A stretch of DNA of 52,443 bases from an uncultured Myxococcales bacterium (GTDB lineage: Bacteria; Myxococcota_A; UBA9042): positions 1-52,443 of the forward strand of contig CAIMLR010000034.1 of NCBI GenBank assembly GCA_903842345.1, read 5' to 3'. Numbering within the stretch: the first letter of the stretch is position 1; each line of letters starts with the position of its first letter. Positions 39,811-45,294 of this stretch are shown here, in pieces. Below the pieces are notes generated by a model. That model was not told the DNA's origin and ran no database searches. It saw only the letters and a program-made list of their open reading frames with translations. The position numbers and the translations under genes were made by a program.

Positions 39811-40479
39811 ATGCTCCGCCAGAACCTCCTCGTCCTCGCGCTCGCGACCGCGTGCAGCCACACACCCGCGGCCAGCACAATCGACCGCACCTATGCCAGC
39901 GCCGGCAGGATCGCGCCCGACGGCGTCGAGCCGACGTGCGTCGCGCAAGCCGTTGACCCGACAACCTGCGTGGCGAGTGATGACGCCGCGAGCGGGGCGG
40001 ACGGCGCGGGAATGGCTGGCGATGCGACCGGCGGGCAGGACGGCGGCACCGACAGCGGCGCGGCGGAATACGGCCCGACGCACAAGGGCAACGCGGCAGA
40101 CGACGACGACTGCAAGTACCGCGTCGCGTGGCAATCGAGCGGGAACCTCGTCAACAGCGACGTGTACTTCCTCATCGATGTGACGTTGAAGGCTGACGGC
40201 AAGCCGGCGAGCCAGCTCGTCGCGACCCACACGCCGATCTTCGCGGAGGTGTACGTCGACAACGGCGACCCGGTCACCAACCATGCCGCGCCGAATTCGG
40301 GCCAGACGGTGGAGGAAACGGCGACGCCGGGGCGCTACGTCGTGGGGCCAATCCATTTTGACCAGGTGGCCAAGCCCTGGACCGTGCGTTTCCACCTGTA
40401 TGGGAACTGCGACGACGGGGCGACGTCACCGCACGGCCACGTCGCGTTCTACTTCGACGTCGTGGCGCCGGGCGCGTAG
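39811..40479 (+). CDS. YtkA/FixH-like small lipoprotein
   Basis: A 222-residue protein. Signal MLRQNLLVLALATAC gives C15. A short Gly/Asp/Ala linker (about residues 55-90) follows. The C-terminal ~125 residues form an immunoglobulin-like beta domain resembling YtkA: YFLIDVTLKADGKPA, AEVYVDN, TPGRYVVGPIHFDQVAKPW, TVRFHLYGNCDDG, SPHGHVAFYFDV. YtkA/FixH-like domains occur in metal or cytochrome-oxidase assembly contexts. AGGAAG precedes the ATG. Its 3' end overlaps the convergent transporter gene by 31 bases. Confidence 0.65.
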   Translation: MLRQNLLVLALATACSHTPAASTIDRTYASAGRIAPDGVEPTCVAQAVDPTTCVASDDAASGADGAGMAGDATGGQDGGTDSGAAEYGPTHKGNAADDDDCKYRVAWQSSGNLVNSDVYFLIDVTLKADGKPASQLVATHTPIFAEVYVDNGDPVTNHAAPNSGQTVEETATPGRYVVGPIHFDQVAKPWTVRFHLYGNCDDGATSPHGHVAFYFDVVAPGA

Positions 40480-41609
40480 ATCCACCCGCGGCGGATCGCC
40501 GTGGCCATCAGCGTCCCGGCAAGCAGACCCACGACGTACCCGTACGGCAGCCCGACAACGGCGGCAGCGACGAGGAGCGCGACCCAGAGCGTCCGGCTTT
40601 CGCTGGCAACATCCGCGACAAGCATCATCAGAGCGACGGCTTCAAACAGCAGCACGATCCCCAGCACCGGCATCGGAAACACGTGCACGAGGTTGCTGAA
40701 GCCCGGCGCGAAGAACAGGCCGAGGAGCAAGTACATGCTGCCGTACAGCACCGCCGCGCCGCCGGTGCGGGCGCCAAAGCCGTAGAAGCCGACGAGCCCG
40801 CCGCAGCCGTGGCAGATCGGCACGCCGCCGAACCAGGGCGCGATGAGGTTCATGGCCGCGTACGTGAAGCCGATCTTGCGGACTGAGACGGGGCGGTCCG
40901 GGAACAGATCGTGCGCCGTCTGGCTGGTGGCGATGACCGAGTTGCCCAGGGAAAGCGGGAGCTGCGGCAGCGCGAGGAGCAGGGCACCTTGGGTCAACTC
41001 GTCCGTCGTCGGTACGCGCAGCGTGGGCAGGTGCAACCCAAACGCGCCGCTGAGCATTGACACCGGGTCGTGGCGCACCAGCGCGTAGACGCCGCCGAGC
41101 GCCATCACCACGAGCGGCGCGGGCACCCGATGCTGCCGGCGCAGCGCCATCAGCAGGATCAGCGCCACGGCCGCGAGCGCATAGCCCGGTGCACCATCGG
41201 CAGCGGCGTATTCCTTCAGCGCGAGCGTCGCCAGCGTGACGCCAAGCCCCAGTTGAATGCCGCGCACCACTTCCTTGGGCACCACGCGTGCGAGCCAATC
41301 CAGAAGGCCCGTGGTCGCCAGCACCAGCATCACGACGCCCACGACAAGGCCTCCGCCCGCGAGCGTGCCCGCGGACAGGTGTTTGGCCAGCATGATCGCC
41401 GCCATCGCCTTGAGCGGCTGGACCGGCATGGGCATCCCGTAGAAGACGCCGGTCGCGATTTGCATGCCGCCGAACACGATGCACACGCTCGCTGCGTCCA
41501 GTCCGCAGGTCGCCACGAGCGCGATGAGCAGGGGCAAGTCCGTCCCGATGTCGCCAAACGCGCCGGCGAGTTCATGGCGATCAAACCGCAGCCGCGGGGT
41601 CTTACTCAT
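40449..41609 (-). CDS. MOT1-type molybdate/sulfate transporter
   Basis: A 386-residue polytopic membrane protein with about ten to twelve hydrophobic spans. Diagnostic motifs of the MOT1 branch of the sulfate-permease superfamily: ELAGAFGDIGTDLPLLIALV near the N terminus, MPVQPLKAMAAIMLA, and LPLSLGNSVIATSQTAHDLF with GGVPICHGCGGLVGFYGFGA. No STAS domain is present, as expected for MOT1. Whether molybdate or sulfate is carried is not decidable. The start overlaps the end of the upstream lipoprotein gene by 8 bases, so the two are co-transcribed. Confidence 0.85.
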   Translation of the reverse strand: MSKTPRLRFDRHELAGAFGDIGTDLPLLIALVATCGLDAASVCIVFGGMQIATGVFYGMPMPVQPLKAMAAIMLAKHLSAGTLAGGGLVVGVVMLVLATTGLLDWLARVVPKEVVRGIQLGLGVTLATLALKEYAAADGAPGYALAAVALILLMALRRQHRVPAPLVVMALGGVYALVRHDPVSMLSGAFGLHLPTLRVPTTDELTQGALLLALPQLPLSLGNSVIATSQTAHDLFPDRPVSVRKIGFTYAAMNLIAPWFGGVPICHGCGGLVGFYGFGARTGGAAVLYGSMYLLLGLFFAPGFSNLVHVFPMPVLGIVLLFEAVALMMLVADVASESRTLWVALLVAAAVVGLPYGYVVGLLAGTLMATAIRRGWIYAPGATTSK

Positions 41610-43761
41610 TGGGCGCGGTCTCTTTCTCGTCGATGCGGAACTTCTCCTTGCACGCCTTGCCCTTGCACAGCTTGGCCGTGACCTGAAACGTCGACTGCAC
41701 GCCGTCGCAGTCCAGGTCGCCCAGCGCGCTGGCAACAAAAGACGCCGCGTCGCCCGTGCCCGCGGACTCAAAACGATAGCGGAAGTGATGCTGCCCGTCC
41801 GGCTGGAAGCCCAGTTCCTGCCAGCCGACCTGCTGCCACGGCGTCGGATCGGCATCGCAGCGCTGATCGCCGTCGCGGTCCACCGCAGGGTCGCAGCAGC
41901 TCACGCCCGGCGTCACAACCGTCGTCTGCGGGAAGCGCGCGGGCAGCGCCTTGCCGGTCTTGGCGTCGATGCGCTCGGTCTGCCAGAACAGGACGGCGGC
42001 CTGGCGAATCTGCCGCAGGTTCTCGCGGGCCTCCGCGGCCTTGGCCAGCGCGACGTACTTGTTGAACTGCGGGATCGCGACCGCGGCCAGGATGCCAATC
42101 ATCGTACCGCCCGACCATCCGCCTTCTGACACGCCAGCCGGCCCCATCGCGATCGTCTCCTCCTCCAGCCGCAGCGCGATGCCCGCCAGCCGCGCCGTCC
42201 CGAGCACGGCCGTGAACGCGTCGGAGACCGACTTGGCGCTCTCGTCCTCCATTTGCCGCGACTGCATGACGCCAAGCGCGATGTCGCGGGCGGTGCGCAA
42301 ATCGACAATCGCGCCGAGAATCACCCGCCCGTCGAGCGCATCCGCCATCGCCGTGCTCGCCAGTGACTGCCCGGCGGGCCGCGCGAGCGCTGCATCCAGC
42401 GCTTCAGGCGAAGGGCCCAACACGATGCGTTCCCCGTCGCGCACGACGGCGATTGTCAACGGCCCGACCTGCGCGGCATAGCCCTGTTGCCCGCCGATTG
42501 TCGCCCGCCGCACGGTCATGCTCAGCTGGTTCTGCGCGCGGTCCGCCAGCGCCGCCAGCGCCGCGTCCGCCTTGGTGCCGTCCTGCACCCCGAACACGAC
42601 CAGCCAGTCGGGCAGGCGCGCGCCGCTCAGGAGCCCCGGCACGGTCGCCATGTCCAGCCCGCCACACACGTGCCCGCTCCACGCCGCCATCACGTCGCCC
42701 GGCGGCAAACCGGTCAGCGCGAGCGCGCCCGTCATGCCAGCCGCCATCATCGCGCGCTCGTCATTGGAGACGGACGGCGGCGTCAGCCGGAGCAGGCCAT
42801 CGGTGAACTTGTTGAGGTGCAGGGACAGCCGGGCGGCTACCCACCCTTCCGCGGGAATCAGCCCGGCGCACAGCGGCGCGGCCTTCTCCGGCACGAACAT
42901 GTCCTGCAGGCTCTGGTGCGCCAACGGCACGGTCGCGACCCGCAGCGCCCAGCCGTCGCCCAGCCACCAGGTGAATTGCGGGAACAGCTTGGCAAAGTGC
43001 GTGACGTTGGACCCCACGTCGATCTTGCCCGTCAGCGCCAATTCGCTCGTCCGCGCCCACGTCACCAGCCATGGCCGTCCTGCGTCGCGCACCGCCGCCT
43101 TCCACGTCGCGGTCTTGTCCAGCGCCGCTGCCGGCATCTGCGCCACTTGCAGGAACGCCTTGACCGCCGCGGCTTTGTGCTCGGGCGTGTCAAGTCCCGC
43201 CGCCGGCGTCATCGCGTAATCCTGCCCCGAGTGCGCGAGCCAAATCGTCATCTTGCCGACTTCACAGGTCTCCAGCTCGCCGTCCTGGGCGAAGACCGCG
43301 CCCTTGCGCGTCAGCAGCGCCTTCCAGTGCTCGGGATTGCTGAGGCGCACAAAGACCACGACCTGGCGCGAAACCACGTCGCTCGCCGGCCAGCGGTCGT
43401 CCATCACGAAGAACACGCCCGCTGCCGCGTCCACGCCGATGTCGTCCCAACCCGCGCGCTTGGTCGGGTCAAAGCCAAACCATTCGATGAGCTTGGGACG
43501 TGAAATCGTCGACTGGGTCTCCGCGCGCATCGGATCGGGCAGGGCGTCCAGCGCCGCCATGAAACGCTCGGCGGTCTTGTCGAGGTCCTGCAGGCCGCCG
43601 ACCAGGTAAGCGTGCTCCGCGTCGGCGTGGCCAGCCAGCGCCACGGCCGTTGGCGCTGCGAGTGCGGCGCGGGCGGCAACTGCCTGTTTTTCAGCAGGAG
43701 TCCCACTGCACGCTGCAAGTGAGAGGACGCATCCGACGACGGATAGTGCACGCAACAGCAT
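41602..43761 (-). CDS. Large lipoprotein with internal type IV pilin-like helix
   Basis: A 719-residue protein. Signal ends VLSLAAC (C18). Residues about 35-545 have a DUF3352-like plan (FDPTKRAGWDDIGVDAAAGV, several GLPPGDVMAAWSGH-like turns) without known motifs. From about residue 549 the sequence reads GGTMIGILAAVAIPQFNKY followed by ALAKAAEARENLRQIRQAAV, the core of a type IV pilin/pseudopilin N-terminal helix, and then a pilin-like globular tail with CCDPAVDRDGDQRCD and FVASALGDLDCDG. The Phe/Glu5 start of a processed pilin is missing. One continuous frame, no frameshift. Overlaps the MOT1 gene. Function unknown. Confidence 0.72.
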   Translation of the reverse strand: MLLRALSVVGCVLSLAACSGTPAEKQAVAARAALAAPTAVALAGHADAEHAYLVGGLQDLDKTAERFMAALDALPDPMRAETQSTISRPKLIEWFGFDPTKRAGWDDIGVDAAAGVFFVMDDRWPASDVVSRQVVVFVRLSNPEHWKALLTRKGAVFAQDGELETCEVGKMTIWLAHSGQDYAMTPAAGLDTPEHKAAAVKAFLQVAQMPAAALDKTATWKAAVRDAGRPWLVTWARTSELALTGKIDVGSNVTHFAKLFPQFTWWLGDGWALRVATVPLAHQSLQDMFVPEKAAPLCAGLIPAEGWVAARLSLHLNKFTDGLLRLTPPSVSNDERAMMAAGMTGALALTGLPPGDVMAAWSGHVCGGLDMATVPGLLSGARLPDWLVVFGVQDGTKADAALAALADRAQNQLSMTVRRATIGGQQGYAAQVGPLTIAVVRDGERIVLGPSPEALDAALARPAGQSLASTAMADALDGRVILGAIVDLRTARDIALGVMQSRQMEDESAKSVSDAFTAVLGTARLAGIALRLEEETIAMGPAGVSEGGWSGGTMIGILAAVAIPQFNKYVALAKAAEARENLRQIRQAAVLFWQTERIDAKTGKALPARFPQTTVVTPGVSCCDPAVDRDGDQRCDADPTPWQQVGWQELGFQPDGQHHFRYRFESAGTGDAASFVASALGDLDCDGVQSTFQVTAKLCKGKACKEKFRIDEKETAPNE

Positions 43762-43821: not shown

Positions 43822-45294
43822 TCAGCCCAGGCTGAGCATGTACGGCGAGGCGCCGCGGACGTTCTCGTCGACCTGCATCGTGTGACGGAGGCTCGGAAAC
43901 GCCCGCTGATCGCAGTCCATGCGCTCACAGAGGCGGCACGTGACGCCAACGGGGATCGCGGAGTCCAGCCTTTGCAAGTCCATGCCGTCGGCGTAGACCA
44001 TTTGGCTGGCGTAGCGGACGTTGCAGCCGAGGCCAATGGCGTGGACGGTGTGCGACGCATGGAAGCCGCCGCGGCCCTTGGGAACGGTGCGGGCGAGGCA
44101 GAAAAAGCTGTTGCCGTCCGGCATCTTGGACAACTGCGTGCGGATGAGGCCCGGCGTGAGGAACGCCGCGTGGATGTTCCAGCGCGGGCAGGCGCCGGAG
44201 AAACGCGCAAAACGGATGCCGGAAGCGCTGAAATGCTTGGAGATGTTGCCGGCAAGATCGACCCGGACAAAGTGCAGCGGCACGCCTTCACGGCCCGGAC
44301 GTTGCAGCGTTGTCAGGCGGTGGCAGACCTGCTCAAAACTGGCGCCAAAGCGATTGCCGAGCAGCTCAATATCATAACGCTCGCGGCGCGTTACATCGAG
44401 AAATGGCTCGTAAGGCATCACAATTGCGGACGCGAAGTAGTTGGCAAGCACCAAACGTCCCAGCGTCCTTGATTCTTGCGACGTCAACAGCGTGTCATCG
44501 CTGAGTTTATCGATCAAGACGGGGAACAGCAGCAGGGCGATTTGCACCGCCAACTGGAACCGCCGGCTGTGCGCCGTCAGCACCTCCGACAGAAACAGCA
44601 CCTTGCGCTCAGGATCGTAGCGCCGCAGCGGCACCGGCCGACTGCCCGAGCGGTGCACCTGCACATCCACGCCCAGATCGCGCGTGAGGACGCGCAGGAG
44701 GCCGGCGCTCAGGTCGTCCGCCTCCAGATGCGCGCTGCGCCAGAGGCTCTCGGCGGCTTCCTCCAGATCCGGAAAGAAGTTCATGTGTTGCTGGACAAAA
44801 TCGTTCACCTCTTCAGAGGGCAACCGCGACGCCGCGACGCCCGGCAGGTTCTGGTCCGCGTACACCTTGGACGCCAGCGTCTCGTTCAGGTTGCGGGATG
44901 CCTGCCAGCCCTCAAAAAGCGCCAGGATCGCACGCACGACGTTGGGCGATTGTTCCGCCACCTCGCGCACTTCCGTCGCCATCAGGTTGTGGCCGTCAAA
45001 AAACGGGTCGGAGAACGCCTCCATCAGATCGGCGGACAGCCTCTCCTCGGCCCGACCAGACAGCGTCTGGAAGTCGATGGGCAGCACTTGCGCCAGCTTA
45101 ATCAGCAGTTCCGCCGTCAGCGCGCGCTGGTCGTGCTCGATCAGGTTCAGGTAACTCGCTGAAATACTGAGGCGTCGCGCCAATTCTGCCTGCGACATGA
45201 GCTCTTTGCGGCGCAGCGCGCGAATCTTGCCGCCGAGCTTGCCTTGGGTGTTTGGCAGCTTACCTTGAATACTGGGTTTTTGCCCGTCGGCCAT
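43822..45294 (-). CDS. RamB/ScfR-type transcriptional regulator (XRE + ImmA/IrrE-like + DUF2083)
   Basis: A 490-residue regulator. Residues about 21-75 are an XRE helix-turn-helix (IRALRRKELMSQAELARRLS, SASYLNLIEH). A middle helical/IrrE-like part lacks a clear HExxH: the equivalent helix reads RRFQLAVQIALLLF, as in non-peptidase members. The C terminus is DUF2083 with CNVRYA and CRLCERMDCDQRAF cysteines. Members such as Corynebacterium RamB regulate acetate and propionate genes in response to short-chain acyl-CoA status. It is divergent from aceB/aceA, the expected targets. GGAGGGAGCG precedes the ATG. Confidence 0.87.
   Translation of the reverse strand: MADGQKPSIQGKLPNTQGKLGGKIRALRRKELMSQAELARRLSISASYLNLIEHDQRALTAELLIKLAQVLPIDFQTLSGRAEERLSADLMEAFSDPFFDGHNLMATEVREVAEQSPNVVRAILALFEGWQASRNLNETLASKVYADQNLPGVAASRLPSEEVNDFVQQHMNFFPDLEEAAESLWRSAHLEADDLSAGLLRVLTRDLGVDVQVHRSGSRPVPLRRYDPERKVLFLSEVLTAHSRRFQLAVQIALLLFPVLIDKLSDDTLLTSQESRTLGRLVLANYFASAIVMPYEPFLDVTRRERYDIELLGNRFGASFEQVCHRLTTLQRPGREGVPLHFVRVDLAGNISKHFSASGIRFARFSGACPRWNIHAAFLTPGLIRTQLSKMPDGNSFFCLARTVPKGRGGFHASHTVHAIGLGCNVRYASQMVYADGMDLQRLDSAIPVGVTCRLCERMDCDQRAFPSLRHTMQVDENVRGASPYMLSLG

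Follow-up and report, generated by a model that had tools for sequence, protein, structure and literature searches.

The window, the whole stretch of 52,443 nucleotides analysed here, carries on its reverse strand a gene that joins a predicted lipoprotein to a pilin domain in one polypeptide (Table 1). Its frame, from 43761 to 41602, runs uninterrupted and without a stop through lipobox and pilin helix alike, as the first-pass annotation had read it. The protein begins MLLRALSVVGCVLSLAAC18, an N-terminal signal with the lipobox LAAC and the Cys of bacterial lipoproteins, from which lipidation is predicted; judged by eye, a lipobox is also present in all four genus orthologues (LTSC, LAAC, LTGC and LTAC in L002-L005). 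After a long N-terminal domain comes a glycine-rich linker, which takes the place of the prepilin leader and of roughly the first nine residues of a mature pilin, and whose 13 residues average 92% identity within the genus. Residues 551-569 read GGT-MIGILAAVAIPQFNKY and residues 552-569 GTMIGILAAVAIPQFNKY. The pilin helix had been placed near residue 549; the homology to pilins is real, but it starts at about residue 552, and W549 belongs to the linker.

Table 1. Features of the fusion locus, with positions in the window.
Feature	Position	Strand	Remarks
MOT1-type molybdate transporter	40449..41609	(-)	Pfam MFS_MOT1, E 6.5e-55
Fusion gene	41602..43761	(-)	ATG to TAA, 719 aa; L002-L005 orthologous, 69-76% identical
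Signal peptide, lipobox LAAC; Cys18 predicted to be lipidated	43708..43761	(-)	From sequence
N-terminal domain, residues ~45-540, weakly DUF3352-like	42142..43629	(-)	PF11832 sub-threshold
Gly-rich linker PAGVSEGGWSGGT, residues 541-553	42103..42141	(-)	hhalign begins at linker end
Pilin helix a1-N, second half, MIGILAAVAIPQF, residues 554-566	42064..42102	(-)	P564 = pilin Pro22
a1-C part of pilin helix, residues 567-600	41962..42063	(-)	Profile alignment
Pilin globular head, residues 601-695	41677..41961	(-)	Motifs SCCDPAVDRDGDQRCD and GDLDCDG; hhalign E 3.4e-55 to canonical prepilins; dN/dS 0.08
ScfR/RamB-type regulator	43822..45294	(-)	60 bp upstream of fusion; Pfam ScfRs, E 7.6e-65

Homology to pilins extends over the head as well as the helix. 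Alignment by hhalign of a profile of twelve fusions with one of fourteen canonical prepilins of the same class gave a probability of 100 and E 3.4e-55 over residues 552-719 (fusion columns 548-716 on canonical columns 20-191), and the fused part aligns from about mature pilin residue 10 onward, and is as much as 51% identical to canonical pilins from that class. Read from this alignment, the domain is a whole pilin, homologous a1-C and globular head included, minus the leader and about the first nine mature residues. The single fusion sequence matched the PilA structure 8tj2 at E 0.0015 and the family profile matched it at E 3.1e-9; the NCBIfam model PilA_Myxo (NF041775) matched at E 1.6e-5, on residues 554-592 only and far under the model cut-off, and a Pfam search of the fusion protein (P0001) gave no N_methyl (PF07963) match at E<=1. 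A pseudopilin had been proposed, but the domain is PilA-type and not specifically that of a pseudopilin. The N-terminal domain is harder to name, since its likeness to DUF3352 (PF11832) is a sub-threshold match that never reaches the Pfam cut-off: residues 383-467 score 14.6 bits (E 0.013) against a gathering cut-off of 26.8, and sub-threshold matches occur in 4 of 12 aligned fusion proteins (best E 0.0018). A Pfam scan of eight shorter fusion proteins gave no matches, and their DUF3352-like label comes from reading their sequences. AlphaFold2, run with two sequences (the window's and L031), returned a full-length model at pLDDT 34 and, for the pilin domain alone, also with two sequences, a long helix followed by four strands at pLDDT 38, confidence too low for either model to be relied on.

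The fusion is not peculiar to this contig. It is present as one gene, and not as two separate ones, in 4/4 other genomes of the same genus (g1, 5/5 in all) at 69-76% identity, which bears out the proposed joining of a lipoprotein, if only weakly DUF3352-like, to a pilin domain. A scan of genome contigs gave one relative only, G001 (record CAIYBN01, an uncultured Myxococcales metagenome-assembled genome). Another genus of the same family, g7, has the fusion in 6/6 genomes at about 30-37% identity, there without a lipobox and with an N-terminal hydrophobic segment instead, and a second fusion copy is found in G002. In a phylum sample of 377 genomes, in which architectures were checked by reading translations and proteins assigned by us from those translations to the classes long fusion, short fusion, signal-anchor and other, family f29 of another class adds L121-L126, L134-L138 and L140, and several other families have shorter proteins combining a DUF3352-like part with a pilin. 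An assembly chimaera or a chance hydrophobic stretch, for which only the odd architecture speaks, is therefore as good as dismissed: the frame cannot be a chimaera because the fusion recurs in every other same-genus genome, with the same gene again in another genus and a second class, and chance is ruled out by the conserved orthologues, the hhalign result and purifying selection.

In the genus, the gene order is malate synthase, ScfR-type regulator, fusion and MOT1-type transporter; the regulator gene, 92-93% identical, holds the same position in L002-L004 and L031, and the order regulator, fusion, transporter is retained in G001. The ATG of the transporter gene (41609-41607) overlaps the fusion stop by 8 nt, ATGAGTAA (window positions 41602-41609), and a similar overlap in L031 accompanies it, an arrangement that suggests translational coupling of the fusion and the transporter. 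This arrangement did not turn up in the g7 and f29 contexts and thus does not explain the function of the fusion. In the contexts examined, with the neighbours in g7 and f29 read by eye, no pilus genes were recognised beside the fusion.

Type IV pilins are defined by the free N terminus that prepilin peptidase makes. The window's protein has no N-terminal class III signal peptide ending in Gly or Ala and followed by 20-25 mostly hydrophobic residues; its pilin part begins at residue ~552. Gly-1 and Glu5 occur together in 0/24 long fusions, 0/10 short fusions, 0/20 signal-anchor proteins and 0/7 other fusions, a zero that is not built in, the fusions having been classed by architecture; the pair is found in 54/59 canonical pilins, a figure that is partly built in, as an FTLIE-like pattern served to choose that set, to which three pilins cut off at contig ends were added. 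The best 19-residue Kyte-Doolittle mean averages 1.65 in long fusions, below the 2.95 of canonical pilins; over the 16 residues preceding the helix, net charge averages -1.75 in the former and +1.89 in the latter. Outside the genus there is no conservation of the GG at residues 551-552, which had prompted the idea of a cleavable pilin-like product. A prepilin carries its signal at the N terminus, and prepilin peptidase works on the cytoplasmic side (PMC10191384), so it should not reach a pilin segment that comes after an exported domain. Because the signature is absent, charge and hydrophobicity are lowered and the peptidase is cytoplasmic-side, cleavage and ordinary assembly of the fused pilin domain appear unlikely; very probably the domain can be neither cut out nor built into a pilus. 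Of the type IV pilin hallmarks tested on sequence, the fusion has homology of the head alone. The genome encodes nine N_methyl proteins and one prepilin peptidase, and since it has FTLIE pilins, the fusion is not its only pilin.

What, then, is being preserved? Among the five genus copies, dN/dS is lowest in the linker (0.06, imprecise at 13 residues) and the head (0.08), followed by the helix region (0.21), the N-terminal domain (0.22), the tail (0.25) and the signal region (0.36), all by a simple Nei-Gojobori count and approximate, since pS is high (about 0.46-0.58). The pilin head is thus more constrained than the N-terminal domain, at about 0.08 versus 0.22. Head cysteines are for the most part conserved in the long fusions (column 152 in 24/24, column 89 in 21/24), which fits an extracytoplasmic head, and the D-x-D-C-D-G motif is retained. 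The half-helix, GILAAxAIPxF, is conserved in most fusions. The head is nonetheless kept where the hydrophobic half-helix has been lost (L040, L044, L112, L113, L116 and L118), and in L126, a long fusion, the helix is degenerate; because heads persist in such members, head function seems to need no assembly helix. Scaffolds other than the DUF3352-like domain also carry heads, among them a protein with WG-like repeats (L040) and a small lipoprotein (L044), and the N-terminal domain occurs alone in L033-L036, L099, L127 and L128. In family f8 genomes, Cys-rich proteins (L041, L042, L115) have three pilin-head-like domains each and lack the pilin helix. We also observed a DUF3352-like protein with a helix-like hydrophobic segment at the pilin junction and no head (L012:230-2068(+)).

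The history of the heads is less tidy than their distribution. In a head tree of 136 columns, with many forks unresolved, the signal-anchor proteins form one clade, whereas the long fusions require several changes. In L032 the N-terminal domain groups among the long fusions of its family (support 98), while the head groups among canonical PilA heads (99/95, 24 rows) and is 61% identical to the head of a canonical family pilin versus at most 50% to other long-fusion heads. The head of L142 is 51% identical to a pilin of the same genome, and a 12-row set (91) contains most f29 fused heads together with one canonical head from a different family; this set lies within a larger one (87) that also takes in f29 canonical heads. 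Such a pattern suggests that heads were replaced, or captured more than once, from resident pilins; a single origin was not rejected by the AU test (p 0.0625 for all long fusions, 0.092 for family f1), and neither single nor multiple origin is proven by these trees.

The signal-anchor proteins are short, combine a pilin head with an N-terminal segment resembling a signal anchor and lack GFTLIE, and one of them is encoded in the window's own genome (L051:874-1407(-), on G000:C20) with the others at L080-L098. They make up 20 rows from 20 family f1 genomes, as one clade (support 100), and no conserved gene neighbourhood was seen across the genera examined. At L144 (G057:C1:3026753-3028858) two pilin-head genes adjoin each other, one with an internal transmembrane segment and no FTLIE, the other a short DUF3352-like fusion, and their heads are sisters (support 100).

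We lean towards reading the fusion protein as an envelope-anchored, non-polymerising mimic of a pilin. Its N-terminal signal would direct export and, in this genus, Cys18 would carry the lipid, with the DUF3352-like domain and the front-trimmed PilA-type domain folding outside the cytoplasm in a single chain. With the positive leader, Gly-1, Phe1 and Glu5 and roughly the first nine mature residues gone, the pilin part should be neither released by the peptidase nor packed normally into a filament, and the half-helix would more likely fold onto the rest of the protein or rest against the membrane. The head would be the constrained, working part, perhaps a docking or decoy surface for whatever normally binds such heads, be it the cell's own pilus, minor pilins or a pilus ligand, and the DUF3352-like domain might act as scaffold or sensor. 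Sequence data show the layout of the protein, its pilin homology and conservation, the lost processing signature and purifying selection; export, lipidation, topology, the lack of cleavage and polymerisation, and docking are inferred, docking being the least certain step. Two observations count against the mimic: pure display of a head would not require conservation of the half-helix, which could mean insertion into a filament or the membrane, and no pilus genes were recognised beside the fusion. The head could instead be a sturdy, disulfide-bonded and perhaps Ca2+-binding generic C-terminal module that binds ligands and has no link to pili, a possibility we take seriously while judging it unlikely. 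The lack of recognised pilus genes nearby would suit such a module, as would the retained D-x-D-C-D-G motif and the heads on the unrelated scaffolds of L040, L041, L042, L115 and L044. A generic module would not, however, need a half-helix, yet most DUF3352-like fusions keep it, and the heads of L032 (61%) and L142 (51%) are closest to resident pilin heads; because some heads resemble resident pilins and the half-helix persists, we prefer docking to a pilus-related partner.

There are two further readings. A membrane hairpin had been suggested by the first-pass annotation; with the half-helix spanning the inner membrane and the pilin head in the cytoplasm, it agrees with the negative charge before the helix and the positive charge after it, which by the positive-inside rule would put the C terminus inside, and with a median uncharged run of 18 residues. 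We nevertheless hold it to be improbable, since the head shares the cysteine conservation of extracytoplasmic pilins, the helix falls short of a pilin transmembrane helix in hydrophobicity and some members without a hydrophobic half-helix still keep the head. A working pilus or pseudopilus subunit, perhaps one at the base that bears a large N-terminal extension, or else a pilin freed by cleavage before the helix, would account for the retention of half-helix and head, for the GG in this genus and for the prepilin peptidase in the genome; it is made very improbable by the absence of the processing signature in 34/34 fusions, by the GG not being conserved, by the missing residues 1-9 and N_methyl match, and by the position of the segment after an exported domain, out of reach of a cytoplasmic-side peptidase (PMC10191384). 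Returning to the mimic, a wider proposal would be that Myxococcota repeatedly weld the head of a resident PilA-type pilin, without its assembly signal, onto envelope proteins, and so obtain matched, non-polymerising decoys or docking domains with which to regulate, sense or anchor their own pili; this we put forward as a speculation that we ourselves doubt.

Planctomycete DUF1559 proteins are said to carry a pilin-like N-terminal motif inside larger exported proteins, in a different phylum and with a different head family. With Myxococcota PilA (NF041775; 8tj2) the fusion shares the second half of a1-N, a1-C and the globular head, but it lacks the class III signal peptide, G-1/F1/E5 and about the first nine mature residues, and has in front 550 extra residues and a lipoprotein signal. 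In modular (bimodular) pilins such as Streptococcus sanguinis PilB, the pilin bearing the grafted extra domain still undergoes processing and assembly (PMC8179133; PMC10191384). The fusion resembles these in uniting a pilin module and a large non-pilin module in one protein, but here the pilin module is trimmed, comes after the extra domain and has lost the processing signal, which places the fusion outside the modular pilins. The literature searched, with most subscription papers outside its reach, held no description of the fusion and nothing on DUF3352, with or without a pilin; nor did the literature searched, with few subscription papers, hold anything combining a pilin-like domain with lipoprotein, fusion and prepilin peptidase. 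The pilin-lipoprotein fusion seems undescribed, although absence from the literature searched is weak evidence of novelty.

Phylum-wide proteins in which the head is under purifying selection and the N terminus discarded imply that a pilin head can be useful outside a filament, and the fusion offers a tethered, non-polymerising head for finding the binding partners of pilin heads. Such fusions will escape searches built on the N-terminal signal, as the lack of an N_methyl match to P0001 illustrates.

Canonical pilins of the same genome drew a further observation. From reading of the sequences, one own-genome contig carries an apparent pilC-type platform gene, a long gene, an apparent response-regulator-type gene and an apparent start of pilA. 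Two own-genome contigs, G000:C27 (L186) and G000:C47 (L187), end within a canonical pilA with their last 130 bases identical, which suggests pilA copies that share a common 5' half and then diverge; pilin pieces lie at contig ends in related genomes too.
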